From Streptomyces sp. PTY087I2 (GTDB taxonomy: Bacteria; Actinomycetota; Actinomycetes; Streptomycetales; Streptomycetaceae): a DNA stretch of 64,000 nucleotides. The stretch is from the NCBI RefSeq assembly GCF_001687325.1, contig NZ_LZRD01000032.1, positions 1-64,000 of the forward strand, given 5' to 3'. The position numbers were made by a program, and so were the translations under genes. This document shows, piece by piece, positions 41,448 to 60,982 of the stretch. The notes below the pieces were generated by a model. The model saw nothing but the letters and a program-made list of their open reading frames with translations, had not been told where the DNA came from and did no database searches. The first letter of the stretch is position 1. Each line of letters opens with the position of its first letter.

Positions 41448-42650
41448 TCAGGACACGGCCGGACCGGCCGCCCTCTGCCCCAGCGCCGCCTCCAGACGTT
41501 CGACGGCGGCGGTCAGGATGTCCGTGGACGCCGCGAACGAGAGCCGTACGTGCTGTTCCGCGGTCGGTCCGAACGCGCTTCCGGGAGTGACGACCACCCC
41601 GGTGCGGTCGATCAGCCAGGCGGCGCACTCCTGAGCCGAGCCGAATCCGAGACCGGAGATGTCGGGCAGCACGTAGAACGCCCCTTCGGGGTCCGCGCAG
41701 GAGACGCCGGGGATCCTGTTGAGCCCGGCGACCAGGAGTCGGCGCCGGTCGTCGTACCGGGCCACCATCTCCTCGACGCAGCCGCGGGTTTCGTCGGCGA
41801 GCGCGGCGAGCGCGCCGTGCTGGACGAACGAGGCGGCGCAGCCGACGGTGTGCTCCTGGACCTTCACGACCTCCCGCATCACGGCGGCCGGGCCCGTCAC
41901 ATAGCCCAGCCGCCAGCCCGTCATGGCGTAACTCTTGGAGAAGCCGTTGACGGTGAGAGTCCGGCCCTCGCAGCCGGGCCGGGCGGCCAGGCTGAGATGA
42001 GGGCGGTCGCCGTAGCGGATGTACTCGTAGATCTCGTCCGCGAGCACGACGAGGTCGTACCGGTCGGCGACGCGTGCGACGGCGTCGGCCTCGGCGGCCG
42101 TCAGCATGCGGCCCGTCGGGTTGTTGGGCGAGTTCACCAGGATCGCCCGGGTGCGCGGGGTGACGGCGGACGCCAACTGCTCGGCGCTGAGGGTGAAGTT
42201 GTCCCGGGGATCGAGAAGGACGTCGATCGGACGCCCGCCGAGCAGGGTGATCATCGGCGCGTAGCTGACCCAGGCCGGTGAGGGCAGCAGCACCTCGTCG
42301 CCGGGCCCGATGACGCCGGCGAGGGCGATGTAGGCGGCGTGCTTGGCCGAAGGGGTGACGATGATGTCGGTCCCCGGGTCGGCGACGATCCCGTTGTCCC
42401 GCAGCAGTTTGGCGGCGATGGCCTCGCGCAGCCGGGGGATGCCGCGACTCGGCGTGTAGTGCGTGAGGCCGGACCGCAACGCCTCGGCCGCCGCGTCCGC
42501 CACGTGTCCGGGCGTCGGGAAGTCGGGTTCGCCGCCGCTGAGGTTGAGCACGTCGACGCCCCGGGCCTTCTGCCGCTGGACCTCGTCGAGCAGGGCGACG
42601 GTGGGCGAGCGCCCGATGGAGGCGGCGACCGGCGGGGGCCCGGCCCTCAC
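41448..42650 (-). CDS. PLP-dependent aminotransferase, class I/II (biosynthetic operon)
   Basis: 400 aa, fold type I aminotransferase of the aspartate/aromatic group. The PLP lysine is in NGFSKSYAMTGWRLGY (about 232-247); NSPNNPTGR and the C-terminal arginine segment are present. It probably aminates a keto acid made by the operon, in the way BacF does in bacilysin synthesis, or installs a ring amine. GTG 42650 overlaps the stop of the isochorismatase-like gene (GTGA), so the pair is translationally coupled. It is the last gene of the operon. Confidence 0.88.
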   Translation of the reverse strand: MRAGPPPVAASIGRSPTVALLDEVQRQKARGVDVLNLSGGEPDFPTPGHVADAAAEALRSGLTHYTPSRGIPRLREAIAAKLLRDNGIVADPGTDIIVTPSAKHAAYIALAGVIGPGDEVLLPSPAWVSYAPMITLLGGRPIDVLLDPRDNFTLSAEQLASAVTPRTRAILVNSPNNPTGRMLTAAEADAVARVADRYDLVVLADEIYEYIRYGDRPHLSLAARPGCEGRTLTVNGFSKSYAMTGWRLGYVTGPAAVMREVVKVQEHTVGCAASFVQHGALAALADETRGCVEEMVARYDDRRRLLVAGLNRIPGVSCADPEGAFYVLPDISGLGFGSAQECAAWLIDRTGVVVTPGSAFGPTAEQHVRLSFAASTDILTAAVERLEAALGQRAAGPAVS

Positions 42651-43243
42651 GCGGCGACCCGCCCGGCCGTGGGCAGCGCCCGCTCGACGCTGCTCACCTC
42701 GGCGGTACGGGCGAGCATGAGCAGCGCCGCGTCCTGAAGCTCCTGGTCGCCCGTGGCCGTCGCGTCCTCCAGCACCTCGACGGCGAAATCGCGGTCGTGC
42801 GCCTCCCGGGCGGTCATCAGCACGACCAGATCGGTGGCCACCCCGGTGAGCAGCAGCGTCCCGATCTTCCGGGACCTGAGCAGGGATTCGAGGTTCGTGC
42901 CGTAGAAGGGGCTCACCCGCTGCTTCACCACGACGTTCTCACCGGGCTCGGGCGTCAGCCTCTCGTGGACCCGGGTCCCCCAGCTGCCGAGGGTGAAGCG
43001 GCGCTCCGGGTCGGGCGGCCCGAACAGGTCCGACGCCGGAGGCCAGTCCTCGTAGTGAGCGCTGTAGCCGAGGACCACGTAGATGACGGGGATGTTCCGG
43101 GAGCGTGCCCGCTCCACGGCCTGAGCCGTACGTTCGATCACGTTGCGGCGCGCCACCTCCTCCCGGCACACGTGCGCGTAGTGCCCGTCGGGGTGGACGA
43201 GTTCGTTGACCATGTCGAGGACGAGCAGTGCTGAGCGGGACAT
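42647..43243 (-). CDS. Isochorismatase-fold protein without the catalytic Cys (biosynthetic operon)
   Basis: 198 aa. The Asp (LLVLDMVNELV) and Lys (VVKQRVSPFYG) of the family are kept, but the cysteine position reads GVATDLVVLMTAREA, Val instead of Cys. True isochorismatases and PhzD also lack Cys and cleave vinyl ethers through Asp/Lys chemistry, so a vinyl-ether substrate related to chorismate is possible. It is 2 bases after the FAD gene and overlaps the aminotransferase by four bases. The reaction is not known. Confidence 0.82.
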   Translation of the reverse strand: MSRSALLVLDMVNELVHPDGHYAHVCREEVARRNVIERTAQAVERARSRNIPVIYVVLGYSAHYEDWPPASDLFGPPDPERRFTLGSWGTRVHERLTPEPGENVVVKQRVSPFYGTNLESLLRSRKIGTLLLTGVATDLVVLMTAREAHDRDFAVEVLEDATATGDQELQDAALLMLARTAEVSSVERALPTAGRVAA

Positions 43244-43245
43244 CT

Positions 43246-45111
43246 TCAACCTCGTATCGCCAGGGGTCGGGGGGTGTTCAGGTCGGCGGGCCGCAGCAGG
43301 TGCGCCGCGACGTCGTCCGCGTCGCGCATGAACTCGCTCCAGCCCGCGGGGCCGGTCGCGACGACCTGGGTGAAGTAGCGGGAGTGCTCGGTGGGAATGC
43401 CGAGCACATGGAGTCCGGGTTCCGGGCGGCCGTCGGAGCGGACCGGATGGAACGGCGACCGGGACACCGCGAGGCCGCCGGTGGGGAACTCCCCGCCGTT
43501 GACGAACTCGCTCCACAGCCCGCGGCGCAGCAGCGCGCGGGTCAGCGCGGAGGTGTCGGCACGGACGTCGACCGCCGGGATCCGGGCGTCGATGACGGTC
43601 TCGACCTCCTCACGGGCGCCCCCGACCTGCGGCGAGGTGACGGTGAACCTGCTCGCCCCGGCATCCGCCGCGAACCGGGCCCGCGGGCCGATGACGCGGA
43701 GCACCCCGGCGTCGATCAGGGCACGCGTCTCGCGCAGCCTGACCAGGGGCGGCCCCGCCGCGAGGAAGGCGCTGCGCGGGGCGTACCAGTCGATCAGGTC
43801 GTCCCGGTGCGAACTCGGCGTCAGGCCACCGAAGTCGGTGAGCTCCCGGATGATCCAGCGCAGGCTGCGCAGGACGTCCAGACCGGCCTTGACCGGGGAG
43901 TCCACGTTGCCCCGCTCCGCCTCGCGTACGTCGGCGTCCACGGCGGCGAGCAGTTCCTTGTCGAAGGCGTCCCGGCCGGCGAACGTCCGGCCGGCGAACG
44001 GCAGCGCCAGCGTGTCGAAGTCGAGGCCGGGCAGCCCGGCCAGGCCGAAGTCGGCCGCGTGGCGCGCCAGTTCGGCGATGGAGCGGCCCCCGCCGGCCCG
44101 CACGCGGGCGGCGAACTCCTCGGCGGTGGCCGCTCCCGAGCGTTCCCGCAGCACGGCGGTGAAGTGGACGAAGTCGACCTCCGCCATCAGCCGGGGCGTC
44201 AGATGCCGTCGCATGTCCAGGCGTTCGGACCCCGCCGTGGCGCGGACGAGTTCCTCCGTGAAGAAGACCGGCCGGTGCAGGAACCCCCCGGGCTTCTGGT
44301 TGCGGCCGCGCGCCGGCTGCGGAAAGCCGCTGCGCGAACCGGCGACGAGGAAGGGCTCGTTGCCGCTGGGGAGGTAGACCAGGCCGTCCCGGGACTCGGT
44401 GAACCGGCCGCCGCGCCCGACCGTGAGCGCCGCCACCACGTCGTAGAACGTGAGTCCCATGCCGATCACACCGGCCTTGCTGCCCGGTGCGACAGCGGAC
44501 AGCGGCATGTCGGCGGCCGAACCGCCGGGGATGAAGCGCAGGGCCGGATCGCTCTCGGCGAACCGCTGGAGTTCCCGCAGATGTCCCGACAGCCGTGGCC
44601 GCGCGTGACCGGTGGCCAGCGCCGCCCTGTCGACGCGGATCTCCCTCCCGTCGTCGAGGGTGAGGCAGTAGCCCTCTCCCTCCTTCCGCAGGTCCGTCAC
44701 GGTGGCGACGAGCCGGTGCAGGGTGACGGAGGGGGGCAGGTGCCGTTCGATCGCGTCGAGGAGGAAGAGCAGGTACCGCCCGTAGAGGCCGCGCGGCGCG
44801 TAGTCGTTCGCGTGATCGTGACCCGGTTCGGTCATGTCCCACCACTGGGCGAACGAGGGCCCGGCTCCGGGACGGGCGGGCCCGGCGTCCGGCGGTCCGG
44901 AAAACGCGGTGATCTCCCCGGCCACCGTGTTCATCAGATACCAGTCCGGCTGTCCGGTCCGCCAGATCCGGCCGCAGCCGACCTGTACGGCGTCGATGAG
45001 ATGGATCTCCACCGGCCCCGGTACCTCGGCCGCCCGGGCGGCGAGCCGCTCCAGGATGCTCAGGGCCCGTGGGCCGCCCCCGACGATCGCGAGCCTGACC
45101 GGCGCGCTCAT
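43246..45111 (-). CDS. FAD/NAD(P)-binding oxidoreductase (biosynthetic operon)
   Basis: 621 aa. An N-terminal Rossmann motif VRLAIVGGGPRALSILERLA is typical of the FAD-NAD(P)-binding (NAD_binding_9) group, with the Trp-rich FAD signature RIWRTGQPDWYLMNTVAGEI. Second and third dinucleotide segments occur near residues 215 (VGIGMGLTFYDVVAA-like) and 290. It probably oxidises an amine or alcohol in the pathway; an imine product would fit the RidA gene nearby. The ATG overlaps the chorismate mutase stop (ATGA). Confidence 0.8.
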   Translation of the reverse strand: MSAPVRLAIVGGGPRALSILERLAARAAEVPGPVEIHLIDAVQVGCGRIWRTGQPDWYLMNTVAGEITAFSGPPDAGPARPGAGPSFAQWWDMTEPGHDHANDYAPRGLYGRYLLFLLDAIERHLPPSVTLHRLVATVTDLRKEGEGYCLTLDDGREIRVDRAALATGHARPRLSGHLRELQRFAESDPALRFIPGGSAADMPLSAVAPGSKAGVIGMGLTFYDVVAALTVGRGGRFTESRDGLVYLPSGNEPFLVAGSRSGFPQPARGRNQKPGGFLHRPVFFTEELVRATAGSERLDMRRHLTPRLMAEVDFVHFTAVLRERSGAATAEEFAARVRAGGGRSIAELARHAADFGLAGLPGLDFDTLALPFAGRTFAGRDAFDKELLAAVDADVREAERGNVDSPVKAGLDVLRSLRWIIRELTDFGGLTPSSHRDDLIDWYAPRSAFLAAGPPLVRLRETRALIDAGVLRVIGPRARFAADAGASRFTVTSPQVGGAREEVETVIDARIPAVDVRADTSALTRALLRRGLWSEFVNGGEFPTGGLAVSRSPFHPVRSDGRPEPGLHVLGIPTEHSRYFTQVVATGPAGWSEFMRDADDVAAHLLRPADLNTPRPLAIRG

Positions 45112-45365
45112 ACGGCGGCCCCGCGGGACATCGTGAGTACGAGGGCGGCCAGGCGCGCCCCGTCGTCGCCGAGGCGGTCGGCGTACCGCTGCACGATCCG
45201 CCGCTCCCGGCCCGCGGCCAGCCGGCTGCCGCCGTCGCGCATCCGGCTGTGCTGGATCTGCCGGGAGAGCGCCATCCGCTCCTCCAGGAGCGCGATGATC
45301 CTCTCGTCGAGCGCGTCGATCCCGGCCCGCCAGGCCGTGATGGGTTCCGTGGCCTCGCCGCTCAT
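45108..45365 (-). CDS. Chorismate mutase, AroQ type (biosynthetic operon)
   Basis: 85 aa, all-helical monofunctional chorismate mutase of the high-GC Gram-positive type: WRAGIDALDERIIALLEERM, then RERRIVQRYADRLGDDG, and the closing MSRGAAV. It converts chorismate to prephenate. It resembles ordinary chorismate mutase rather than the ADC mutase PapB, and no ADC synthase is nearby. ATG 45365 is chosen because the residue pattern starts there; a longer frame to 45479 is not needed. It supplies prephenate to the decarboxylase in the same operon. Confidence 0.9.
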   Translation of the reverse strand: MSGEATEPITAWRAGIDALDERIIALLEERMALSRQIQHSRMRDGGSRLAAGRERRIVQRYADRLGDDGARLAALVLTMSRGAAV

Positions 45366-45415
45366 GTCGCTCCCTCCCTCCCGGACACCGCCGGTCAGGG
45401 ACCCCGCACCCGTGC

Positions 45416-45799
45416 TCACGCGCCCACCACCGCCAGCACGTCGGCCTCGATGAGCAGGCCCCCCGGCAGCTGCACCCATATCGTCGTGCGGGCCGGCGCG
45501 ACCTCGCCGAACACCTCGTCGAACAGCTCGTTCATGGCCGCGAAGTCCTCCTCGCGCGCCAGGTAGATCCTGACCATCAGCACATCGGAGACGGCGGCAC
45601 CGGCGGTGCCGAGCAGCTCCCGGAGGTGGGTGAACACGGCTCGGGCCTGCTCACGGAAGCCCGGCACGGGCCCGTCGAGCCGGCCGGGGACGAACGGGAC
45701 CTGGCCCGAGACCGCCAGGAGCGGTCCGCGGCGTACGACCGGTGAGTAGCGTGCGGCCGGGGCCGGAGCGCCGGGCGCGGAGAACGTCTCGCTGAGCAT
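45416..45799 (-). CDS. RidA family protein (biosynthetic operon)
   Basis: 127 aa of the YjgF/RidA fold (PLLAVSGQVPFVPGRLDGPV; VRIYLAREEDFAAMNELFDE; PARTTIWVQLPGGLLIEADV). RidA proteins hydrolyse enamines and imines, so here it could remove by-products of the two aminotransferases or the FAD enzyme. ATG 45799 has AAGG six bases upstream. It lies between leuD-like and chorismate mutase. Confidence 0.88.
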   Translation of the reverse strand: MLSETFSAPGAPAPAARYSPVVRRGPLLAVSGQVPFVPGRLDGPVPGFREQARAVFTHLRELLGTAGAAVSDVLMVRIYLAREEDFAAMNELFDEVFGEVAPARTTIWVQLPGGLLIEADVLAVVGA

Positions 45800-45862
45800 C
45801 AATGACCTTTTCCGGAGAGGTACGGGAAGGGGTTCGGGGCATCGGCGCCGGGCCGGCCGCCG

Positions 45863-46453
45863 TCAGACCGGGCCGGACCGGCGCTGCCCGGCGGCGGCCG
45901 ATTCGTACGCCTCGATCTCGGGGAGACGGCCGAGCGTCTCGGCGATCGGGTCTCCCGGCTCCAGCAGCCGGCGGAGCAGCGGCTCGGCGATCCGCACCGG
46001 GCTCTCCACCTCTCCGCAGGTCAGCCGCCGGGCCGCCAGATCGACGGTGACGGGCAGCCAGGGATCGGCTTCGACCGCGGCCCACAGCCGCTCGATCACC
46101 TCGTGGTCGACCTCGGCCGTCCACAGGCTCCGCATCGTGGCGTTGCCCCGGAAGATGTCACCGAAGCGGCTGGCGACGACCACCTCGAACCCCGCGCTCT
46201 GGAGCGCCCAGACGGCCGATTCGCGGGAGGATCCGGTGCCGAAGTCGCGGCCGGCGACCAGGACGGTCGCACCCTGGTGGGCGGGCTGGTTGAGGACGAA
46301 CGCCGGGTCCGCCCGCCAGTCCGCGAACAGGATGTTCGTGAAACCGTTCGGCCGGAAGTACGGGACGAACCGGGCCGGGGCGAGCTGGTCGGTGTCCACG
46401 TCGTCGCGGCGCAGGGGGACCGCGGTCCCCCTGCGGAGGGCGGGCTCGCTCAC
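45863..46453 (-). CDS. 3-isopropylmalate dehydratase small subunit-like (LeuD)
   Basis: 196 aa. This is a full-length LeuD-like subunit: [20 protein letters not shown] (about 13-32) and [20 protein letters not shown]. With the large subunit it makes an aconitase-type isomerase moving a hydroxyl between neighbouring carbons. Start GTG 46453 overlaps the leuC-like stop (GTGA). The pair sits in a secondary-metabolism context rather than next to leucine genes. Confidence 0.9.
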
Positions 46454-47847
46454 AGGTCCTCCGGAGTGGTGAGGCGGCCGGAGACAGCCGTGGCCGCCGC
46501 GACGCGCGGTGAGACCAGGTGGGTCCTGGACTGCTTGCCCTGACGCCCCTCGAAGTTGCGGTTGCTGGTGGACGCGGCGCGTTCGCCCGGGGCGAGGCGG
46601 TCCTCGTTGAGGGCGCAGCACATGGAGCAGCCCGCGCCTTCACGGAAGTCGGCGCCGGCCTCGGCGAACACCTTGTCCAGCCCCTCGGCCTGCGCCTGCC
46701 GGCGGACGGCGGCCGAGCCCGGGACGATCAGCAGGTGCACACCGTCGGCCACCCGGCGCCCGGCGAGGACGGCCGCGGCATCCCGCAGGTCCTCGATCCG
46801 CCCGTTGGTGCAGGAGCCGAGGAAGACGGTGCTCACCGAGAGGTCCCGGACGGCCTGGCCGGGGCGCAGCCCCATGTAGTCCAGGGACCGCCGGGCCGAG
46901 GCCCACTCCTCCTCGGTGGCGAAGTCGGCCCGGGTGGGGATCGATCCGTCGATCAGCAGGTTCTGCGCCGGGTTGGTCCCCCAGGAGACCCGGGGGCCGA
47001 CGGCGGCGGCGTCGATGTGCACGACGTCGTCGAACCGGGCGTCGTCGTCGCTGCGCATCGCGCGCCAGCGCGGTTCCGCCTCGGCGAACGCGTCGGCCCG
47101 GCCCTGGGCCTCCAGCCGGCCGCGCAGGTAGTCGATCGTCGTGTCGTCGGCGGCCACCAGGCCCGCCCGCGAACCGGCTTCGATGCTCATGTTGCAGAGC
47201 GTCATCCGGCCTTCCACGGAGAGCCCGCGGACGGCCTCGCCGCGGTACTCGATGATGCTGCCCTGCCCGCCCCCGGTGCCGATCTGCGCGATCAGCGCCA
47301 GCGCCAGGTCCTTCGCCGTTGCCCCGTCCGGCAACGCCCCGGAGACCTCGACGGCGAGGTCCCCCGGCCGGTGCACGGGCAGGGCCTGGGTGGCCAGGAC
47401 ATGTTCGACCTGGCCCGTGCCGATGCCGAAGGCGAGCACGCCCAGGGCGCCGAGTGTCGAGGTGTGCGAGTCGCAGCAGACGATCGTCATCCCCGGCTGG
47501 GCGAGGCCGAGTTCGGGGACGATGACATGCACGATCCCCTGGTCCGCGTCGCCCAGCCGGTGGAGCGGGATGCCGAACTCGGCGCAGTTGGCGCGGATCA
47601 GCTCGCGTTGCCGCCGCCCGGCCAGATCCTCCAGGGCGCCTTGTCGGGTCGGGGTGTTGTGGTCCTCGACGGCGAGCGTGCGGTCGGGGCGGCGGACTTT
47701 TCTGCCGGACGCCCTCAAGTCGTCGAAGGCCCGGGGGGTGTTGACCTCGTGCAGGACGTGCAGATCGACGTAGAGCAGATCGGCCCCGTCGTCGAGCGGG
47801 CGCACCACGTGCTGGGACCAGATCTTCTCGGCGAGCGTCCTGCCCAT
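46450..47847 (-). CDS. 3-isopropylmalate dehydratase large subunit-like (LeuC)
   Basis: 465 aa, normal LeuC length. The [4Fe-4S] ligands are present in GSCTNGR and [33 protein letters not shown] is the conserved loop. It should isomerise 2-substituted malates to 3-substituted malates after the condensation made by the DRE-TIM enzyme. ATG 47847 lies one base after the prephenate decarboxylase stop. No leuB-like dehydrogenase is in the operon, so either the host enzyme is used or the malate is the real branch point. Confidence 0.9.
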
Positions 47848-47848
47848 C

Positions 47849-48463
47849 TCAGGCCGCCACCGGCTCGACGGCCCGGGTGAGCCGGAAGACGGACCAGAGC
47901 ATGTCGATGGGCCGGGTCTCGGAGATGAACGTGAGGCCGTACCGCTCGGCCGACGGTGCGGTGGTGAGCGCCGCCTCCACCCGGCCGGCCCGCGCGGCGA
48001 GCGCGGCCGCGCTGGTGGAATCGGTCAGGACGGTCTCCTTGACGCTCATCCCCTTCGGCAGCAGCTGCTCGATCAGCGGTACGGGGGCGGGGTGGCTGGC
48101 GATCCGGACCGGCCCGGAGGGAGTGCTGCCGGGCACCACCGCGATGCCGTACAGGGGGGTCCGGTAGTGGTAGGCGCCGACCAGGCTCAGCTCCGTGTTC
48201 ATGTAGAACTCGGACACGTTGGCGTACGCGTTGGCCACCACCAGCAGATCGGCCGAGCCCTGGAGCACCGCTCTGGAGGCGGATTCGTAGCTGTGGAACA
48301 GCGCGGGGGTCTGCTCGACGGAGTCACCGGGAAGCCGCGCTATGAGGTGCTTGGCCGCCAGTTCGCTGCTCGTGCCGGCCGGTCCCAGGGTGGCCACCTT
48401 CCAGCCCCTCGCCGTCGTGGGCATGGAGATATCCAGGAATTTCTGGTCTGTCGGTTGCTGCAC
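47849..48463 (-). CDS. Prephenate decarboxylase, BacA/AerD/SalX-like
   Basis: 204 aa, the same length as BacA of bacilysin synthesis. The N-terminus [19 protein letters not shown] and the stretch [18 protein letters not shown], followed by [13 protein letters not shown], match prephenate decarboxylases rather than dehydratases. The TRF motif essential for dehydration is not there (the end reads MLWSVFRL), and there is no ACT domain. These enzymes decarboxylate prephenate without aromatisation, giving dihydro-4-hydroxyphenylpyruvate. GTG 48463 follows GGAAGG. Known partners include bacilysin, aeruginosin Choi and salinosporamide cyclohexenyl units. Confidence 0.82.
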
Positions 48464-48507
48464 TGTCTTCCTTCCACCGGTGCTTGCGGGAAGCGGGGCG
48501 TGGGAGT

Positions 48508-49467
48508 TCATCGGGGCGGTACGGGGGTGAGCCAGGTGGCGTACGCGGGGCGCCGTCCCCGTACCACCTCGGTGTACACATCGCGGAGTCGCCGGGTCAG
48601 GTCCCCGGCCCGGCCCGTGCCCACCGGGCGGTGGTCGATCGAGGTGACGGGGCAGACCTCGACACCCGTACCGGTGGTGAACACCTCCTGGGCCTCGTCC
48701 AGTTCGGCGCGTCCCACCGGCCGTTCCGCGACCGGCAGGCCGAACTCCCGCGCCAGCAGCTCGATCACCGTGGCCCGGGTGATGCCGGGCAGGATGTCGG
48801 CGGTGACGGGCGGGGTCGCGATGCGGCCGTCCCGGCCGACGACGAAGACGTTGGACGTGCTCGCCTCGGTGAGGTTGCCGTCGAGGCCGAGCATCAGCGC
48901 GTCGTCGCAGCCGTCGGCGTACGCCTCCTCCACGGCCAGGGCGTTGTTGGCGTACGTGCCGGTGATCTTGGCCGCTGACGGGATGCTGACGGACGGCACG
49001 CGCCGGAAGCTGCTCACCTTGCAGGCCAGACCCTCGCTCGGGACGTAGGGCCCCATCCGCACCGTGGTCAGCGTGAACTGCGCGGAGACCCCGCTCAGCC
49101 GGACGCCGAAGGGGGTGCCCGGTTCGAGCGCCAGCTTGTAGGCGAGCGGGCGGATGTAGGTGTCGCCGTCGCCGTCGCCGCCGTTGCGCCGCAGCAGGTC
49201 CAGGACGACGTCGCTCATGTCGTCCACGGTCAGCGGCAGCCGGATCCGCAGCGCGCCGGCGGAGCGCTCCAGGCGTTCCAGGTGCTCACGGAGCCGGAAG
49301 ACCGAAAGACCGGCCGTGTCTTCCCGGGCGTAGGCACGGATGCCCTCGAAGACACCGGTTCCGTAGTGCAGGGCCTGGGTGCTCACGGGCAGGCCCACCG
49401 TGTCGGCGCGGACGAACTCCCCGTCGTGGAAGGCGAACCGGGGCGAGGCCACGGCGGTCGTGGTCAT
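48508..49467 (-). CDS. Class IV (branched-chain type) aminotransferase (biosynthetic operon)
   Basis: 319 aa, D-amino-acid/BCAT fold. Conserved parts are STQALHYGTGVFEGIRAY (about 29-46), YIRPLAYKLALEPG, PSAAKITGTYANNALAVEEA (the PLP lysine is in SAAKITG) and DGNLTEASTSNVFVV. It probably transaminates the homologated keto acid. The ATG overlaps the stop of the adenylate-forming enzyme gene (ATGA). It is followed by a 44-base gap to the prephenate decarboxylase. Confidence 0.88.
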   Translation of the reverse strand: MTTTAVASPRFAFHDGEFVRADTVGLPVSTQALHYGTGVFEGIRAYAREDTAGLSVFRLREHLERLERSAGALRIRLPLTVDDMSDVVLDLLRRNGGDGDGDTYIRPLAYKLALEPGTPFGVRLSGVSAQFTLTTVRMGPYVPSEGLACKVSSFRRVPSVSIPSAAKITGTYANNALAVEEAYADGCDDALMLGLDGNLTEASTSNVFVVGRDGRIATPPVTADILPGITRATVIELLAREFGLPVAERPVGRAELDEAQEVFTTGTGVEVCPVTSIDHRPVGTGRAGDLTRRLRDVYTEVVRGRRPAYATWLTPVPPR

Positions 49468-50879
49468 CGCGCGCCACGCCCCGCGGCGATCGCCAGGGCG
49501 GCCGCCCGCTCGGGCTCCGCGCCGGAGCCGCGCCGGTCGTGGATGCGCGCGGCCTTCCAGCTGACCATCGCGCCCGTGCTGGTGATGGCGTCCATGGAGC
49601 CGAGCACGACCTCGCAGGCGACATGGAAGGTGTCCGCGACGGCCCGCCGGATCGCCACGCGATCGATGGCGGCCCCGGCCTCCTCGTCGACGGGTTCGAG
49701 GTTGACGGTGACGAGGTCCTGGCCGTCGGCCTCGTCGATGAGGAGGAAGTAGTCGATGACACCGCGGATATGGGTGAACAGCGTCTGTTCGAGGTCGAAC
49801 GCGGTCACCCGCCGTCCGGCGAGGCGCAGCGCGTCCCGGCTCCGGCCGATCGGCTGCATCACTTCGGAGACCGAACCGGGCTCCGCGAAGAGCCGTACCA
49901 GGTCGCCGGTGCGGTACCGCACCAGAGGCTTGGCCCCCCGGTACAGATGGGTGACGACGAGCTCGCCCTCCCGTACTCCGCCCACCGCCTCGACCGCCCG
50001 CCCGGTGTCGGGGTCGATCACCTCGATGTGGTTGTTCAGCGGGACGGTGTGCAGCCGGCCGTCGGCGTGGCAGGCGGCCATGATCGACGCTTCCTGCGAG
50101 GCGTACATGCAGTTGTAGACGGCGGCCGACCACAGCGCGCCCAGGTTCTCCAGCATGGCGGGCGAGGTGAGTTCCCCGAGGGTGAGGATGAGCCGGACGC
50201 CCAGGCGGCCGTGGAGGTCGATTCCCGCGGCGCGGGCCGCCTTCGCCAGCGAGATGGCCATGCCGGGGGTGCAGACGATCGCGGTGACGCCGAGCTGTTC
50301 GAGGAGCGCCAGCGCGCGGGGGAAACCGACGACCGGTGAATGCGGCCACATCTTGACGACGGTGTGGCCCAGGTTGCGCAGTACGTCGCCGAAGGTGTCC
50401 CCGGTCGAGTGGAGTTCGGTGGGCCCCATGACCGCGACGACGTGACGCTCGCCGTGCTGGGCGAAGATCTTCTCGTACGCCAGGGTCAGGGCCGTGTTGT
50501 TGACGATGGAGTCCCGCTCGTCACGGGGGCACGGGGTGGCCCGGCCGGTCGTTCCGGTCGTCTCGTAGTAGACCCAGGCCCGGTCGATCGGCTGCGACAT
50601 GACGTCGAACAGATCCGCCCGCAGATCGTCCTTGGTCGTGAACGGCACCGCGGCGAAGTCCTGGGGGCTGATCGGACCGGCCGCCGGCACCGTCACGCCG
50701 CTCAACCGGTCGGCGTAGAAAGCCGAGTTCGCCCGGACGTAACGGATGGTCTCCGCCGCCCGCTCCATCTGGAGCGCGTGCACTTCCCCGGGCTGCCAGC
50801 CGCCGTCGTGGAGCCGTCGCTGCTCGGCCAGGGTGTCCTGGGCGTAGGCCGCGAGTTCCGGCCTGAAGAGGGTGAACAC
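49464..50879 (-). CDS. PaaK-like adenylate-forming enzyme (biosynthetic operon)
   Basis: 471 aa, phenylacetate-CoA-ligase type. The P-loop motif is YYETTGTTGRAT; the YRTGD motif and the C-terminal STGAMVSWKAARI are present. It activates a carboxylic acid as acyl-AMP and may pass it to CoA or an amine, or close a lactone. AMP-forming enzymes make the beta-lactone in belactosin and cystargolide pathways, which also use isopropylmalate-type chemistry. GTG 50879 follows AAAGGA. The true acceptor is unknown. Confidence 0.84.
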   Translation of the reverse strand: MFTLFRPELAAYAQDTLAEQRRLHDGGWQPGEVHALQMERAAETIRYVRANSAFYADRLSGVTVPAAGPISPQDFAAVPFTTKDDLRADLFDVMSQPIDRAWVYYETTGTTGRATPCPRDERDSIVNNTALTLAYEKIFAQHGERHVVAVMGPTELHSTGDTFGDVLRNLGHTVVKMWPHSPVVGFPRALALLEQLGVTAIVCTPGMAISLAKAARAAGIDLHGRLGVRLILTLGELTSPAMLENLGALWSAAVYNCMYASQEASIMAACHADGRLHTVPLNNHIEVIDPDTGRAVEAVGGVREGELVVTHLYRGAKPLVRYRTGDLVRLFAEPGSVSEVMQPIGRSRDALRLAGRRVTAFDLEQTLFTHIRGVIDYFLLIDEADGQDLVTVNLEPVDEEAGAAIDRVAIRRAVADTFHVACEVVLGSMDAITSTGAMVSWKAARIHDRRGSGAEPERAAALAIAAGRGAR

Positions 50880-50961
50880 CGGTGTCCTTTCGATCGGTTG
50901 ACATGGAGGTCGGCGAGGAGCTGTGGAAGGCCGTCCCGGCGCGGGCCCGGAGCGCCCGGAC

Positions 50962-51294
50962 TCATCCGGCCCGGCCGGGCTCGCCGAGCAGCGCGCCCTC
51001 GGACCGGTCGAGATCGACCACCACCCAGGTGCTCAGCTCCTTCCAGGCCCGCACTCCGCGCTGGTGGTCCGGGTGGTGCTGGTACCTCTCCAGCGCGGCC
51101 CGGTCCGTGAACAGGCCGATGACGGCGAAGTCGTGGGCCGCCTCGCGGGGAGTGGTGTTGCGGCCGACCGACCAGGACCGGATCTCCGGGATGTGCTCGG
51201 GGTGCCCGCGCGAGATGCGTTCGGCCTCCACGGCCCGGGGGTCGTCCCAGGTGACGCCCGGAAGGAAGCGGAAACAGACGATGTGGCTGATCAT
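50962..51294 (-). CDS. Dabb (stress-responsive A/B barrel) domain protein
   Basis: 110 aa, single alpha/beta barrel domain (ISHIVCFRFLPGVTWDD; HDFAVIGLFTDRAALERYQH; WVVVDLDRSEGALLG). Small Dabb proteins act as dimers and in some plant and microbial pathways are cyclases or ligand-binding proteins. Its place between the condensing enzyme and the adenylate-forming enzyme suggests a specific pathway step. The role is inferred only from position. Confidence 0.84.
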   Translation of the reverse strand: MISHIVCFRFLPGVTWDDPRAVEAERISRGHPEHIPEIRSWSVGRNTTPREAAHDFAVIGLFTDRAALERYQHHPDHQRGVRAWKELSTWVVVDLDRSEGALLGEPGRAG

Positions 51295-51307
51295 CCCCGG
51301 GCCCCGG

Positions 51308-52477
51308 TCAGCCGGGTACGGGAGCGAGGTCGGCCGCCAGGCGCTCGCGGAGGACGGAGATGTCCTCGCAGTCGCTCTCGGCGCGCTCGAAGATGTACCG
51401 GCGGTAGACCTCGTCCAGTTCGGCCTTGTCGATCTCCAGCCCCAGTTCGCCCAGAAGGTGGCGCAGCACCGCCCGGCCGGAGTGCCGGCTGATCAGCAGG
51501 CTGCGCTCCCGGCCGAACCGGGCCGGCTCGACGTACTCGTACGTCGCCGGGTTGCGGAGCATGCCCGCCTGGTGGATCCCCGCCGCCGTGCCGAAGGCGT
51601 ACTTGCCGAAGATCGCCTTGTTCCGGGGCTCCTCCAGCCGGATGATCTCGCGGAGCCGGTTGTAGACGCTGTAGATGCCCGCCAGGTCGGCCGTGGAGTA
51701 CAGGCCGATCCGCTCGCCCTTGTAGGCGAGGAAGGCGCAGACCTCCTCCATGGCGGTGTTGCCGGCGCGCTCGCCGATGCCGCCGACGGTGACCTGGACG
51801 TCGTCGGCACCGGCCTCCAGCCCCGCGATGGCGTTGGCGGTCGCGACACCGAAGTCGTTGTGGCAGTGCACACCGATGCGCACCGGGGCGGGCGCCCACG
51901 ACCGGATCCGGGCGATGAGATCGCCGAACTCCGCGGGGGACGCGCAGCCGGAGGTGTCGGCGACGGGGATGTAGCGGGCCCCGGCCTCCACCGCCCGCTC
52001 GGTGAGCTGTTGCAGATAGCCGAGGTCGCCGCGGGTGGCGTCCTCGATGCCCACGGCCACGGTCTCCACCCCGAGGGAGGCGGCGAACCGCGCCGCGTCG
52101 ACGGCGTCCTCGATCGCCTGCTGCCGGGTGATGCCGAGCTTGTGCTCCAGGTGGATGTCGCTGCCGGTGCCCATGATCTGGAGTACGTGGTTGCGACCGC
52201 CCGCCGCCTGCACCGCCGTCTCGACGTCGTCCCGGCGGGCCCGGGAGAGGGTCGCCACCCGGGCCCGGGAGAGCGCCGCGGACACCGCCTGGGTGGCGTC
52301 GAAGTCGTTGGACGAGGACGCCGGGAATCCCGCCTCGATGATGTCCACGCCCAGCGCTTCGATCCGCAGGGCCAGATCGAGTTTGTCCTGGGAGGACATG
52401 GCGTTGGCGGGGGCCTGTTCTCCGTCGCGCAGCGTCGTGTCGAATATCTCGATGCGCCGCGGTTCTTTCCTGGTCAT
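51308..52477 (-). CDS. 2-isopropylmalate/homocitrate synthase-like enzyme (DRE-TIM metallolyase)
   Basis: 389 aa. The signature is complete: FDTTLRDGEQAPANAMSS near the start, IEAGFPASSSNDFDAT, the metal site HCHNDFGVATANA, and GERAGNTAMEEV. It lacks the C-terminal leucine-regulatory domain of true LeuA, as is common for homologation enzymes in secondary metabolism. It should condense an alpha-keto acid with acetyl-CoA; here the likely keto acid is the prephenate-derived dihydro-hydroxyphenylpyruvate. ATG 52477 is used. The gap to the Dabb gene is 13 bases. Confidence 0.9.
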   Translation of the reverse strand: MTRKEPRRIEIFDTTLRDGEQAPANAMSSQDKLDLALRIEALGVDIIEAGFPASSSNDFDATQAVSAALSRARVATLSRARRDDVETAVQAAGGRNHVLQIMGTGSDIHLEHKLGITRQQAIEDAVDAARFAASLGVETVAVGIEDATRGDLGYLQQLTERAVEAGARYIPVADTSGCASPAEFGDLIARIRSWAPAPVRIGVHCHNDFGVATANAIAGLEAGADDVQVTVGGIGERAGNTAMEEVCAFLAYKGERIGLYSTADLAGIYSVYNRLREIIRLEEPRNKAIFGKYAFGTAAGIHQAGMLRNPATYEYVEPARFGRERSLLISRHSGRAVLRHLLGELGLEIDKAELDEVYRRYIFERAESDCEDISVLRERLAADLAPVPG

Positions 52478-52554
52478 TTCTCGGACTCCTTGGATCGAGG
52501 AGAGCCGTCGGGGCGCTCCCTGGAACTCCTGCCGTCCTGATGCGCGCGGACCGT

Positions 52555-52947
52555 TCAGTCGACCGGCCGTACCGGCTGCTCCCATACGACGAATCCGACG
52601 GCGCCCTTCGGACTGCGCGGGGTGTGAACGCTGTCCGGTGGCATGACCAGCAGGCTGCCCGCCGGATAAACCCCGTCGTCGGTCTCGATCTCGCCCTCGA
52701 GAATCCAGATGATCTCGTATCCGGGATGCCGGTGCGGCTGGGCTTTCCCGTTCGGCAGGTAACGGACGATGGCCGCCGCCGGACCGTCCGCGCCGGTCTC
52801 CCGCGTCGAGTACAGCGAATGCATTTCCACGCCGACGCGTCCGTCGCGCATCAGCGGCTGGAACTCGTAATCCACGGGGCCGAACGATTTCCCCGGTATG
52901 CCTCCGTACAGCTGCGGAAGCGCGTTCGTGCCGTTCTGTTCCGACAT
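52555..52947 (-). CDS. Single-domain cupin (biosynthetic operon)
   Basis: 130 aa. The cupin metal site is shown by NGKAQPHRHPGYEIIWILEG (His-x-His and a Glu) and PPDSVHTP (last His). Bacilysin and aeruginosin pathways use a cupin (BacB, AerE) right after the prephenate decarboxylase to move a double bond in dihydro-hydroxyphenylpyruvate. This single-domain protein could do the same, although it is not a close BacB look-alike. ATG 52947 has AAGGG six bases upstream. Confidence 0.8.
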   Translation of the reverse strand: MSEQNGTNALPQLYGGIPGKSFGPVDYEFQPLMRDGRVGVEMHSLYSTRETGADGPAAAIVRYLPNGKAQPHRHPGYEIIWILEGEIETDDGVYPAGSLLVMPPDSVHTPRSPKGAVGFVVWEQPVRPVD

Positions 52948-52986
52948 GCTCATCCCTTTTTCTTCCGGTCCTGGGGCGGAGGGGTT

Positions 52987-53994
52987 TCAGTCGCCGACCT
53001 TGCCGGGGATGCCGTCGATCCAGGCGTCCCGGTGCGCGTCGGCGGCGGCCCGGTCGGAGAAGGCGTAGGTCTTGAGCAGCCACCGGCCGAGCGCACGCGT
53101 GGAGTCCTGGATCTCGATCTGCTCCCGGTTGTGCAGGGCGCTCTGGTTGGCGAACGTGAGCACGTCGCCCTGCTGCATGCGGTGCCGCTGCTTGGGCACC
53201 CGGGTCAGCGCGTTCTTCAGCGCCAGCAGGGCGTCCTTGGCCTCGACGGGCGCGTCACCGGCGGCTGTGGTGTGGGTGTCGAGGTAGCGCAGCGAGGAGA
53301 CCCCGCTGAGGATCGGATGGGACGGCGTGCTGTCGAGTTCGGTGTTGGCGTCCCGGGAGACCACGTCGAACGGGGTGACGAAGTAGGGCTCGCGGAGCAC
53401 CTGCTGGGTCTCGGGCGACAGCTCGGCCAGGAGCCGCCGGCCGGCGACGAAGCCGGTGTAGACCAGGTCGTCGGGCGGGCAGCGCATGCCCAGCAGCGTG
53501 ATGTAGTCGGCCCGGACGGGGTGGGCCGTGCGGTCGTTGTGGAACACGACCTCGCCGCCGTTGTAACCCGTCTGCTGTCCCAGGTACTTGTTGATGGCGA
53601 CGACGTCGATGAAGAAGTCCCCGCCGAACCGGTTCGCGTAGGAGAGCAGCGGGGTCCGGGTGATCTGGGCCAGCAGCTCCAGGAATCCCTCGCCGATGAA
53701 CGTGACCTTCCGGCTCTTCTTCTCGGCGGAGGGGTCCTCGTTGCCGATTTCCGGAAGGTCTTCGTCGACCGGGCAGTTCCGCAGGACATGCGCCTCCGAA
53801 ACGCCCGAGGAACGTTCCTCCCTGATTTGGTCGGCCGCGCGGAGCAGCCTTTCGGGTACTCCACCGTCGATCACGAGCTTGGAGACGCGGTCACTGAATG
53901 CGAGATAGTCCTCGTAGGGACTCACCTCGACGGTTTCCAGCCTTTCGATGAGCTGTGAGCGTTCACTGTCCGTCAGAACGAGCAGGGCTTCCAA
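52987..53994 (-). CDS. Fe(II)/2-oxoglutarate-dependent oxygenase (TauD/clavaminate-synthase-like)
   Basis: 335 aa. The metal triad is visible as VVFHNDRTAHP (HxD) and LHNRE (third His), with an arginine for 2-oxoglutarate in LGRWLLKTYAF. The overall form resembles the clavaminate-synthase-like hydroxylases of amino acids (lysine, arginine). It may hydroxylate the final amino acid or its ring. It starts at TTG 53994 after GGGAG and is the first gene of the operon. The promoter should lie in the 125 bases upstream. Confidence 0.85.
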   Translation of the reverse strand: MEALLVLTDSERSQLIERLETVEVSPYEDYLAFSDRVSKLVIDGGVPERLLRAADQIREERSSGVSEAHVLRNCPVDEDLPEIGNEDPSAEKKSRKVTFIGEGFLELLAQITRTPLLSYANRFGGDFFIDVVAINKYLGQQTGYNGGEVVFHNDRTAHPVRADYITLLGMRCPPDDLVYTGFVAGRRLLAELSPETQQVLREPYFVTPFDVVSRDANTELDSTPSHPILSGVSSLRYLDTHTTAAGDAPVEAKDALLALKNALTRVPKQRHRMQQGDVLTFANQSALHNREQIEIQDSTRALGRWLLKTYAFSDRAAADAHRDAWIDGIPGKVGD

Positions 53995-54218: not shown

Positions 54219-55433
54219 TCAGTGGGCGTCGTAGATGCCCCGGTAGTGGCCGAGGGCGGTCTCGTGGATCTTCTCGTCGCTCCAGGAGTCGAAGCGGCCG
54301 GGGGAAAGACGGTCGGGGTCGAGAAGGGCGTCGCCGGTGCCCAGCAGCATGTTCGCGAGCTGCCGGCCCACCCCGCCGGCGTGGGTGACCCAGGAGGCCT
54401 CCGCGAACCACAGACCGGGCACCCCGGCGGCCGGTCCCACGAGGGGCAGTTCGTCGGGGGTGAGAGCGAAGACACCGTTGAGCCTGCGCCCCCGGGGCGC
54501 CTGCCGGAAGGCCGGCACCAGGGCGAGCGCCTCCTCGATCGCCGTGCCGAACTCCGCATCGGGGAAGGGGAGTTCGGCGGAGGTGAGCTCCGGGCCCGGG
54601 GTGAGCGGCAGTGCGGTGTGGGCGTAGCTGCCCAGTCCGTACCGGCGGCCGTGGCGGCGGGTGTAGACCGCCTGGTCCGGGTAGCGGACGATCGGGGTGT
54701 CCAGCGGGGTGTCGTCGAGCCCGGGCAGTTCGGCGGTGAACACATAGGGGTGCTGGACGTCGACCATGGGGAGCCGTACCCCCGCCTGCGCCGCCAGGAC
54801 CGGGCCCCAGATGCCGGTGGCGAGCACGACCCGGTCGGCCGGGATCAGCCGGGCGTCCTCGCCCGCCCGGACGCCGATGACCGCGCCGCGCTCGACCTCC
54901 AGCCCGCGCACCGCCGTGTTCCAGCGGAAGCGGACTCCGCCGCGCTCGGCGGAGTCGACCAGGGCGTGGGTGAGCGCCGCCGGATCGGCGGCTCCGTCGG
55001 CCGGGATGTACAGCGCCCCCAGGGCCTTCTCCGCGTCGACCAACTCCGGTGCCAGCGCGGCGGCTTCGGCCGCGCCGATGACCCGCGCCTCGATGCCGAG
55101 GGCCCGGCCGTGTTCGACGTCGCGGTGGGACTGCTCCAGGCGGTCGGAGTTGGTCGCGATCTCCAGGCAGCCGACCTGCCGGAAGACCGGTGCGGGCGCG
55201 GTCCGCGAGAGCTCCAGGTAGGTGGCGACGCTGTCCTTCGCCAGCACGGCCAGTTCCCCGGTGGCGCTGAGCTGACCGACGAACCCGGGTGCGAGCCCCG
55301 TGGATCCGGGCAGGGTCGCCCGGTCACGGGCGTCCAGCACCGTCACCCGGCCGTGTCCCAGCTCGGCGAGGTGATGGGCCACCGAGGCCCCCACCACTCC
55401 GGCCCCGACGACCAGGATCTCTTCCGTAGCCAT
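54219..55433 (-). CDS. FAD-dependent oxidoreductase (DadA/glycine-oxidase-like)
   Basis: 404 aa. Rossmann motif ILVVGAGVVGASVAHHLAEL, conserved Gly-rich and DAO signatures, and the closing motif GGVGRQLANMLLGTGDALLD. It is like the DAO part of sarcosine or dimethylglycine oxidases. It may oxidise an amino acid or N-methylglycine. It is divergent from an IclR regulator with a dyad in between, which suggests control by that regulator. ATG 55433. Confidence 0.87.
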   Translation of the reverse strand: MATEEILVVGAGVVGASVAHHLAELGHGRVTVLDARDRATLPGSTGLAPGFVGQLSATGELAVLAKDSVATYLELSRTAPAPVFRQVGCLEIATNSDRLEQSHRDVEHGRALGIEARVIGAAEAAALAPELVDAEKALGALYIPADGAADPAALTHALVDSAERGGVRFRWNTAVRGLEVERGAVIGVRAGEDARLIPADRVVLATGIWGPVLAAQAGVRLPMVDVQHPYVFTAELPGLDDTPLDTPIVRYPDQAVYTRRHGRRYGLGSYAHTALPLTPGPELTSAELPFPDAEFGTAIEEALALVPAFRQAPRGRRLNGVFALTPDELPLVGPAAGVPGLWFAEASWVTHAGGVGRQLANMLLGTGDALLDPDRLSPGRFDSWSDEKIHETALGHYRGIYDAH

Positions 55434-56423: not shown

Positions 56424-57428
56424 TCAGGAACCCAGCAGGCGTGCGACGTCGACCAGCCGGTGCGAGAAGCCGGACTCGTTGTCGTACCAGCCGAAGATCT
56501 TGACGTGGCGTCCGTCGCCGGTGACCGTCGTCAGCTTCGAGTCGAAGATGCAGGACGCGGGGTCGCCGACGATGTCGGTGGAGACCAGGGGGGCGTCCGT
56601 GTGGCGCAGGACGCCGGCCAGCGGACCGGCCGCCGCGTCGGCGAACAGCCCGTTGATCTCTTCGACGGTCGTCGGCCGGGAGGTGTACGCCGACAGGTCG
56701 GTCAGCGACCCGACCGGGACCGGCACGCGCAGGGACAGACCGGCCAGCCTGCCGTTCAGCTCGGGCAGCACGGCGCCGATGGCCTTGGCCGCACCGGTCG
56801 ACGTGGGCACGATGTTGAGGGCGGCCGAACGGGCCCGCCGCGGGTCCTTGTGCGGCCCGTCCTGGAGGTTCTGGTCCTGCGTGTACGCGTGCACGGTGGT
56901 CATCAGGCCGTGTTCCAGGCCGACTCCCTCGTGCAGCACCTTGGCGAGAGGCGCCAGGCAGTTCGTGGTGCACGAGGCGTTGGAGACGATGTGGTGGGTC
57001 GCCGGGTCGTAGTCCTGGTGGTTGATGCCGTACGCGAGGGTGATGTCCTCGTTCGTCGCGGGGGCCGAGATGAGGACCTTCCGCGCGCCGGCCTCGATGT
57101 GCGCCCTGGCCTTGGTGCCGTCGGTGAAGATGCCGGTCGACTCGACCACGACGTCGACGCCCAGCTCGTCCCAGGGCAGCTTGCCCGGGTCGCGCTCCGC
57201 GTGGACCGCGATCTTCCGGCCGTCGATGACCAGGGAGTCGCCGTCGGCCTCGACCTGGGCGTCGAGCCGGCCCATGGTGCTGTCGTAGGAGAGCAGATGC
57301 GCGAGCGTCGCCGCGTCCGTGAGGTCGTTCACCGCCACCACGTCGAGGTCGGTTCCCCCGGTGAGCGCGGCTCGCAGGAATCCGCGGCCGATGCGGCCGA
57401 ACCCGTTGATGGCGACCTTGGTGCTCAT
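56424..57428 (-). CDS. gap: Glyceraldehyde-3-phosphate dehydrogenase
   Basis: 334 aa, full-length class I GAPDH. NAD-binding INGFGRIGRGFLRAALTG; catalytic Cys in SNASCTTNCLAPL; His in TVHAYTQDQNLQDGP. It should be active in glycolysis/gluconeogenesis. Streptomyces usually carry a housekeeping copy elsewhere, so a copy next to a biosynthetic cluster can be a self-resistance version (as in pentalenolactone producers) or a way to shift triose phosphate flow. No residue change specific for resistance was recognised. It stands between an IclR gene and an EamA exporter. Confidence 0.95.
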   Translation of the reverse strand: MSTKVAINGFGRIGRGFLRAALTGGTDLDVVAVNDLTDAATLAHLLSYDSTMGRLDAQVEADGDSLVIDGRKIAVHAERDPGKLPWDELGVDVVVESTGIFTDGTKARAHIEAGARKVLISAPATNEDITLAYGINHQDYDPATHHIVSNASCTTNCLAPLAKVLHEGVGLEHGLMTTVHAYTQDQNLQDGPHKDPRRARSAALNIVPTSTGAAKAIGAVLPELNGRLAGLSLRVPVPVGSLTDLSAYTSRPTTVEEINGLFADAAAGPLAGVLRHTDAPLVSTDIVGDPASCIFDSKLTTVTGDGRHVKIFGWYDNESGFSHRLVDVARLLGS

Positions 57429-59135: not shown

Positions 59136-59777
59136 TCACCGGGAGGTCCTGGCGGAAGCCGGGGCCGCCACCCGGGCCAGCGACCGGAAGAGGAGCGTGG
59201 TGGACGCGGCGCCCGGGTCCATGTGCCCGACGCTGCGATGCCCGAGGTAGGACGCCCGCCCCTTGCGTGCCTGCATCGGGATCGTGGACCAGGCGCCGGC
59301 CGCCGCGGCCGGCGCCGCTGCCGACGCCGCCGCGCCGAGATCCCCGGCCCGGACGGTACGGAAGGCCGTCAGCGCCGGGATGAAGGCGTCCACCATCGTC
59401 TTGTCGCCCGGCGCCGCGGCGCCCAGCCGGACGATCGCGTCGAGCCCGGCCGTGAGCGCGTCCCCGAACTGCGCGGCGTCGGCCCTGGCCGCCGGCAGTG
59501 CGGTTCCCATCGCGGAGAAGGCGCCGCCGTACAGCACTCCGGAGGCCCCTCCGACATGAGCTCTGATCAGCGCTCCCGATTCCCGCAGCACTTCGCCGGG
59601 AGAATCCGGTATTTCGCCCGATTCCAGCCATCTGCGAACGCGGGAGAGCCCTCTGTGGAGGTTGACTCCGTGATCCCCGTCGCCTATCGCGGAGTCCAGG
59701 GTGGTCAGATGGTCTTTCTCTGCAAGGGCAGCCTCTTCGAAAGCCAGAAGCCAGGATTGAGCAAGCGCTCTGTCCAC
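59136..59777 (-). CDS. DhaL-like domain protein (orphan)
   Basis: 213 aa. The DhaL nucleotide-binding fold of dihydroxyacetone kinases: LDSAIGDGDHGVNLHRGL (metal aspartates), GGASGVLYGGAFSAMG and PGDKTMVDAFIPAL. The partner DhaK is not next to it. DhaL uses ATP, or DHA-kinase phosphotransfer from DhaM in PTS systems, and needs DhaK for the substrate, so the orphan copy must work with a distant DhaK or have another task. GTG 59777 matches the family start. Confidence 0.82.
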   Translation of the reverse strand: MDRALAQSWLLAFEEAALAEKDHLTTLDSAIGDGDHGVNLHRGLSRVRRWLESGEIPDSPGEVLRESGALIRAHVGGASGVLYGGAFSAMGTALPAARADAAQFGDALTAGLDAIVRLGAAAPGDKTMVDAFIPALTAFRTVRAGDLGAAASAAAPAAAAGAWSTIPMQARKGRASYLGHRSVGHMDPGAASTTLLFRSLARVAAPASARTSR

Positions 59778-60121
59778 ACGGTTTCCTTCACTTGCGACGG
59801 TGGTGGGGGAACGCCGCCCCTCGACCACATTGTCAAGCGACACCGCAGGATGCTCATGTGAATGGCCGGAATCAGACCGGTCATTTACTCTAGTGCGTCA
59901 CTCCGGCGCGAACAACGGGCCGTTGAGTAAAGAGAAAGCCAAACGGCCTTCAGGGATTGGATCCGGGCGCTCTCCGACAGTTTTCAGCCAGGATTTCCGG
60001 AAAAGCTGGCATGTGAGGTGCGAGCCTGCATGTGATCTGAACTCCATTCAGCATTGCTGAACGCGATTCCGAGAACTAGGCTCCCGTCCGTCAACCGAGC
60101 ATCCTCGCGAAGGGCGTACCC
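59778..60121. promoter_or_regulatory. Divergent promoter region with a palindromic site
   Basis: No gene is seen. TTCAGCATTGCTGAA (60047-60061) is a 15-bp palindrome that overlaps a likely -35 (TTGCTG, 60054-60059); TAGGCT (60077-60082) with exactly 17 bases between is the -10 for the LuxR gene that follows. A regulator, maybe LuxR itself, may bind there. Confidence 0.5.
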
Positions 60122-60850: not shown

Positions 60851-60935
60851 CGGCGAACAGCGCGCCTCCCCCTCCTCGTCCATCGGCGGATGACGGGGTC
60901 CGGCCGGGCATGGATGATCGCAGCGTGCTCGAGCT

Positions 60936-60960: not shown

Positions 60961-60982
60961 TACGACCTAGGGGGAGGCCGCC

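Follow-up and report, generated by a model that had tools for sequence, protein, structure and literature searches.

Photorhabdus forms dihydrophenylalanine by means of a non-aromatising prephenate decarboxylase and a transaminase (PMC5897657), and disruption of salX abolishes the supply of cyclohexenylalanine (PMC2866466). Among the Salinispora strains that carry the cluster, the cyclohexenylalanine genes are reported to be kept and to vary in position. The HphA/HphCD/HphB homologation of aromatic substrates in Nostoc uses a benzylmalate-synthase-like step followed by a LeuCD-type isomerase (PMC12961565), and the PDB entry 8cp2 is an aspartate N-hydroxylase (PMC10404684). We compared with these systems a stretch of 64,000 nucleotides from Streptomyces sp. 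PTY087I2 (contig NZ_LZRD01000032.1, positions 1 to 64,000; hereafter designated the window). The Photorhabdus 2,5-dihydrophenylalanine locus (L101 and eight others) resembles the window in a Dabb-domain protein, a PaaK-like ligase, a branched-chain aminotransferase-like protein (BCAT), and the decarboxylase (44–45% identity), whereas its DUF2000, CMD, OCD, and LysE genes are missing from the window cluster, and LeuC, the isopropylmalate-synthase-like enzyme, and the flavoenzyme, all three found in the window, are missing from it; the orthologous cluster of genome G170 keeps DUF2000, as Photorhabdus does. The same four genes recur in the salinosporamide locus with SalX (Salinispora fenicalii, L106; decarboxylase identity, 53%), which additionally contains OCD, DUF1330, PhzF, P450, MbtH, and NRPS genes and has no leucine-type (Leu-type) cassette. 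BacA of bacilysin/anticapsin biosynthesis (Bacillus; Streptomyces sp. Mg1, L058) belongs to the same decarboxylase family (32–38% identity), but its partners are BacB and SDRs, unlike those in the window. The Hph pathway is likened to the window by description and not by sequence, with the same order of condensation and LeuCD-type isomerase; it differs in its aromatic keto acid, in its dehydrogenase HphB, and in having no flavin N-hydroxylase. The aspartate N-hydroxylases (the Streptomyces sp. V2 enzyme, CreE, and FzmM) resemble the window flavoenzyme in its full-length match to 8cp2 (E 2.9e-97) with five of eight pocket residues kept, whereas the partner of the window flavoenzyme is the Leu-type cassette.

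The window cluster consists of 14 genes on one strand (41448–53994) and is conserved in S. sindenensis (L059), S. durocortorensis (L060; genome-collection copy, L033), and G170 (L034). It is an apparently new arrangement, in which the decarboxylase set is merged with a second cassette comprising the isopropylmalate-synthase-like enzyme, LeuC, LeuD, the flavoenzyme, an aminotransferase, and a TauD-like oxygenase, together with a chorismate mutase and an extra DAHP synthase. The 14 genes, and the extra DAHP synthase gene outside that stretch, are as follows.

41448–42650, minus strand: class I/II PLP aminotransferase-like enzyme (PF00155, 244.3 bits)
42647–43243, minus strand: isochorismatase-fold hydrolase (PF00857, 138.7 bits)
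43246–45111, minus strand: flavin N-hydroxylase of the aspartate N-hydroxylase (8cp2) type (PDB 8cp2/8cp5, E 2.9e-97; most of the Arg cluster kept)
45108–45368, minus strand: chorismate mutase (NF005894 and TIGR01808, over cut-off)
45416–45802, minus strand: Rid-family protein (PF01042)
45863–46453, minus strand: LeuD-like isomerase small subunit (NF002458, over cut-off; PF00694)
46450–47847, minus strand: LeuC-like isomerase large subunit, second copy (TIGR00170, over cut-off; 63% to the copy elsewhere)
47849–48511, minus strand: prephenate decarboxylase-type gene (220 aa from ATG 48511; 204 aa if the start is GTG 48463)
48508–49467, minus strand: branched-chain aminotransferase-like protein, class IV (NF005146, 293.6 bits, above the cut-off of 279; PF01063)
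49464–50879, minus strand: PaaK-like adenylate-forming ligase (PF00501; PDB PaaK-like ligases, best E 1.8e-24)
50962–51294, minus strand: Dabb-domain protein (PF07876, 70.0 bits)
51308–52477, minus strand: 2-isopropylmalate synthase-like protein without the regulatory domain (PF00682, PF22617; NF002086, 356.5 bits, below the cut-off of 532)
52555–52953, minus strand: single-domain cupin (PF12973, PF07883)
52987–53994, minus strand: TauD/asparagine-oxygenase-like Fe(II)/2-oxoglutarate oxygenase (PF02668; PDB amino-acid hydroxylases, best E 6.2e-10)
61726–63171, minus strand: class-II DAHP synthase, second full-length copy (PF01474, 672.9 bits)

The DAHP synthase copy is linked to the cluster in four genomes (G000, G178, G170, and S. 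sindenensis). No LeuB gene occurs in the cluster, and the sole PF00180 gene of the genome lies on another contig; therefore, a LeuB step, if any, would be borrowed. A BacB-type role was considered for the cupin and rejected, since the protein is short, has a single cupin domain, and accompanies the Leu-type cassette (5/7 cassette loci).

The preliminary description had reported, with no strand given, an open reading frame of 204 residues at 47849–48463; this frame is real and corresponds to the GTG-start form on the minus strand. The upstream ATG at 48511 overlaps the BCAT stop codon as ATGA. GTG 48463 is a plausible start codon, because GGAAGGA lies just 5' of it and because it marks the point from which the sequence is conserved in the G170 orthologue (dN, 0.70 across the preceding 16 codons and 0.115 downstream). 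The orthologues of the window protein in two other genomes show 96% and 77% identity, and comparison with the more distant one (G170) gave a dS of 0.506 against a dN of 0.146; thus, the frame is not a chance one, and the gene is under purifying selection. The LGPAGTSSE and VANAY..FYMN motifs noticed earlier were both found in the translated protein, and the two absences noticed with them hold as well: a Pfam scan returned PF00800 only (32.7 bits; cut-off, 25.2) and hence no ACT domain, and SVF occupies the position of the TRF motif. The ENS motif is also absent, with NAY at that position, and the three matching NCBIfam models of prephenate dehydratases (PDTs) scored 24–35 bits against cut-offs of 219–577.

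The preliminary description had further called the protein a prephenate decarboxylase rather than a dehydratase, by likeness to BacA, AerD, and SalX, which we take to be prephenate decarboxylases sharing these features. The sequence supports this assignment through profiles, residues, and gene partners, and through trees in part. A decarboxylase profile was built from 16 sequences (five BacA-type, four Photorhabdus, three salinosporamide-type, two anticapsin-type, and two cyanobacterial) without the window orthologues, and a PDT profile was built from 15 true PDTs, control PDTs being collected from 12 of the genomes of the scan relatives; AerD was not retrieved by name, and the two cyanobacterial relatives with BacB/SDR neighbours served as its stand-ins. 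The window protein scored 185.1 bits with the decarboxylase profile and 36.1 bits with the PDT profile, whereas the true PDTs gave the reverse, 126–230 bits with the PDT profile and 5–36 bits with the decarboxylase profile (leave-one-out, 15/15). When a known-type group was withheld from the profile to which it belongs, its one test member scored 159–188 bits; therefore, the window protein, at the same level, behaves by score as a sixth group of the decarboxylase profile. For all 77 decarboxylase-type rows the decarboxylase profile gave the higher score, with a margin of 107 bits or more, although 16 of these rows had been used to build that profile. The PDT of the genome itself is encoded on another contig (C9) and scored 164 bits in a search in which the window gene scored 32 bits.

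The T and R of TRF, the E of ENS, and a Q residue are catalytic in PDTs. Consistently, the E and N of ENS, the Q, and the T and R of TRF are invariant in all 15 PDT rows, and the window protein has at these columns a gap for E, the N (in NAY), Leu146 for Q, and Ser207 and Val208 for T-R. Among the 77 decarboxylase-type rows, Trp206 and Phe209 are invariant, position 207 is Ser or Thr, and position 208 is never Arg; Thr118, Pro119, Tyr121, and Gly122 are invariant in a 49-row alignment (A3), and the window protein carries both T118-P119-x-Y121-G122 and W206-[ST]-x-F209. LGPxGTSSE is found in 77/77 decarboxylase-type rows, a count that proves little, as the same pattern was used in the genome scan. 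Collectively, it may be concluded from profiles and residues that the gene product is very probably a non-aromatising prephenate decarboxylase.

Phylogeny had been proposed as the check on this assignment. In a quick tree of 99 rows, which omitted 10 of the 80 scan loci, the 14 PDTs formed one side of a branch (SH-aLRT, 99), and in a careful tree of 78 rows, from which 22 rows with long branches or near-copies had been dropped and to which L188 had been added, the PDTs without the window formed one side of a branch at 100/100. The position of the window group is less settled: the AU test did not reject a topology that places the window trio next to the PDTs (p 0.641; likelihood 7.0 above the free search), and a tree joining the BacB set plus the window gave p 0.415. 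Thus, the split of the PDTs from the window stood, and the point at which the window trio joins with respect to the PDTs did not become fixed; the tree, as a reading of the sequences, keeps the window outside the PDTs without fixing its basal place or the deep branching. When the predicted structure of the window protein (pLDDT, 86.8) was compared with the PDB, ranks 1–10 (TM, 0.47–0.53) were taken by PDT chains and by the PDT-like GqqA. In a phmmer search of the PDB, the decarboxylase matched a PDT only weakly (E 0.012), and so did the family profile (E 0.0097).

A survey of the genus gave matches in 102 of 392 genomes, of which 15 (window included) lay at E ≤7.6e-38, the next being at 2.9e-22. 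When the 14 other close relatives were read as 14 loci of 16–20 kb, a PaaK-like ligase and a BCAT were found near the gene in all 14 and a Dabb-domain protein in 13. A GTDB contig scan with alignment A2 yielded 126 confirmed relatives, 80 of which were kept; gene calls in the unannotated loci were heuristic, and 20 of the 80 loci have cut flanks, so that partner absence there is weak. PaaK-like ligase and BCAT occurred together in 55 loci (with Dabb in 54/55 and OCD in 51/55), BacB and SDR in 12, neither set in 13, and both in none. The prephenate decarboxylases can thus be told apart by two partner sets, BacB/SDR and Dabb/PaaK/BCAT, with zero overlap in 80 loci. The latter includes the nine Photorhabdus loci and Salinispora fenicalii, and named plasmid records of Pantoea and Pseudomonas carry it with the decarboxylase and an exporter; the former includes Bacillus, two cyanobacteria, and two further Bacillota. 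Streptomyces sp. WZ-12 has the decarboxylase set inside a PKS-NRPS cluster, and Streptomyces sp. Mg1 has an anticapsin-like partner set. These results show that the window gene is part of a recurrent set of Dabb, PaaK-like ligase, BCAT, and decarboxylase common with the Photorhabdus and Salinispora loci, and they raise the question of why formation of dihydro- and cyclohexenyl-alanine needs a carboxylate-activating ligase. The window-type loci L059 and L060 have no BacB bicupin and SDR beside the decarboxylase, both lying outside the 12 BacB/SDR loci, and they contain no OCD, DUF1330, or PhzF. Since the window lacks OCD (present in 51/55 of the PaaK and BCAT loci), PhzF, and DUF1330, its later chemistry must differ.

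The flavoenzyme belongs to a common family (305/392 genomes at E ≤1e-40), and the surroundings of 20 of its best matches were read. LeuC, LeuD, the aminotransferase, and TauD surrounded it in 7/20 loci, along with the synthase (6/7), the isochorismatase-like protein (6/7), and the cupin (5/7), and none of these seven cassette loci had a decarboxylase match. In one of them, L188, a PDT gene lies between the synthase and the flavoenzyme (PF00800, 165 bits; TRF present; ACT, 23.9 bits, just below the cut-off of 27), and L196 has at the same place a PDT-like stretch interrupted in frame; neither a PDT nor such a stretch was seen in the other five. Among the eight pocket residues listed for the aspartate enzyme, R13, R266, R409, R412, and R416 are kept in the window flavoenzyme, R276 is replaced by Leu and N413 by Trp, and R577 aligns to Gly; Trp at the N413 position was found in 6/10 cassette members and in 0/20 others. 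It is only suggestive that such a pocket may suit a bulkier dicarboxylic amino acid, for example a 3-substituted aspartate.

The cassette without a decarboxylase in 7/20 loci, taken with the PDT adjoining the synthase in L188, makes the window cluster look like a natural swap of an aromatising for a non-aromatising starter enzyme. The best explanation, which we hold with good though not full confidence, is that the gene encodes a prephenate decarboxylase that stands alone and belongs with the BacA, SalX, and Photorhabdus enzymes. The genes for chorismate mutase and for the second DAHP synthase, both present in the window, would provide for prephenate supply. By analogy with its family, the decarboxylase would take the carboxylate off the prephenate ring and leave the 4-hydroxyl group in place, giving 3-(4-hydroxycyclohexa-2,5-dienyl)pyruvate (dihydro-4-hydroxyphenylpyruvate) with a non-aromatic ring; to call this the committed step that keeps the ring non-aromatic, as had been done, is reasonable. 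The keto acid may then be modified by the products of the co-conserved Dabb/PaaK/BCAT genes. Condensation with acetyl-CoA by the isopropylmalate-synthase-like enzyme, followed by LeuC/LeuD isomerisation, would afford a 3-substituted malate, which would be aminated and then N-oxidised by the aspartate-N-hydroxylase-like flavoenzyme. We infer that the chances are about even for this passage of the keto acid to the synthase and LeuC/LeuD and its subsequent amination and N-oxidation. More tentatively, and with the balance somewhat against it, the product of the starter swap might be an N-oxidised amino acid antimetabolite with a cyclohexadienyl or cyclohexenyl ring in place of the usual aromatic one, with the linked extra GAPDH gene possibly marking the target or self-resistance. 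The presence of the synthase, LeuC, and LeuD in the absence of LeuB prompted the idea of a link to bestatin-type 3-amino-2-hydroxy acids; this link is speculation, and a literature search on it found no paper.

The strongest competing explanation accepts the prephenate decarboxylase but has its ring product converted directly into an amino acid via BCAT, the Leu-type cassette being a second, unrelated pathway that acts on a different keto acid. It is a serious contender, albeit one we would not bet on: in Pantoea, Pseudomonas, and Vibrio the decarboxylase set occurs by itself, accompanied by a LysE exporter, just as the cassette stands alone in the seven flavoenzyme loci, whereas the 14 genes of the window are interleaved on one strand, with the decarboxylase between BCAT and LeuC, and S. 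sindenensis, S. durocortorensis, and G170 all retain this grouping; moreover, the PDT adjoining the synthase in L188 suggests an arylpyruvate substrate.

It is unlikely that the gene encodes a relative with another reaction, for example on another shikimate-derived substrate, as may hold for TdaC and the L019 and L023 groups. Such stand-alone relatives do exist and score above their PDT-profile values with the decarboxylase profile: L019–L022, a separate branch of short PDT-like proteins adjoining PaaK-like ligases (101 against 25 bits), the L023 group (67–71 bits), and TdaC, a short TRF-less relative (75 against 20 bits). The TdaC case establishes that a short TRF-less protein alone is not enough to call a decarboxylase, and the absence of OCD from the window set would also fit another reaction. 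Against this, the window protein scores at the level of the held-out known-type groups, keeps the FYM and W-S-V-F positions that are changed in these other groups, and has a chorismate mutase adjoining its gene. Finally, a degenerate or specialised prephenate dehydratase supplying phenylpyruvate for an aromatic product is very improbable, for although PF00800 lies above its cut-off, a real PDT occupies the same cassette at L188, and the AU test allows a place beside the PDTs, this identity is contradicted by the profile scores (36 bits against 126–230 for left-out real PDTs), by the loss of the T-R of TRF, the E of ENS, and the Q, and by partners that are those of the dihydro- and cyclohexenyl-amino acid loci.

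For the preferred reading, a decarboxylase feeding the Leu-type cassette, the enzyme is of a known kind, and what is unusual is the combination of a ring-preserving starter, leucine-type chain extension, and a flavin N-hydroxylase. No paper joining a prephenate decarboxylase with isopropylmalate-type genes was found in the open-licence literature, most subscription papers lying outside this scope; as far as that literature can tell, the cluster combination is apparently undescribed. If the reading is true, nature offers the same cassette in two versions, one with an aromatic starter and one with a non-aromatic starter, so that the ring tolerance of the downstream enzymes could be tested directly; the cluster would then also hint at small amino acid antimetabolites of a new, non-aromatic class.

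Several further genes were observed in and around these loci. At 56424–57428 (minus strand) lies an extra GAPDH gene, whose linkage to the cluster is seen in G000, G178, and G170; in G258 and G289, a GAPDH gene adjoins the Leu-type cassette. The remaining cassette genomes either lack a linked copy or have copies on other contigs, control genomes also give 3–4 matches, and the linked copies do not form one clade. It is possible that a linked GAPDH marks a target or self-resistance. The stretch 59136–61705 contains a DAK2-domain gene and two LuxR-type regulator genes; LuxR homologues occur near the Leu-type cassette in 5/7 loci, and L188 has a DAK2 homologue (66%). For an FAD oxidoreductase gene (DAO) at 54219–55433 (minus strand), homologues at 74% are present in two decarboxylase loci, those of Amycolatopsis azurea (L065) and Streptomyces fumigatiscleroticus (L112). 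A Pseudomonas aeruginosa plasmid (L056), where a small-amino-acid pathway would not be expected, carries the decarboxylase set together with a LysE exporter. In some Streptomyces loci, the decarboxylase set and a chorismate mutase are accompanied by a PF02621 (MqnA/MqnD-like) gene, as at L039:5182–6114; genes like it occur in 10 scan loci. Near a Dabb-PaaK-BCAT-decarboxylase-OCD set, L038:5487–6371 encodes a proteasome beta subunit (TIGR03690, 361 bits) with homologues in L037, L046, L086, and L132, which suggests proteasome-inhibitor clusters with self-resistance.
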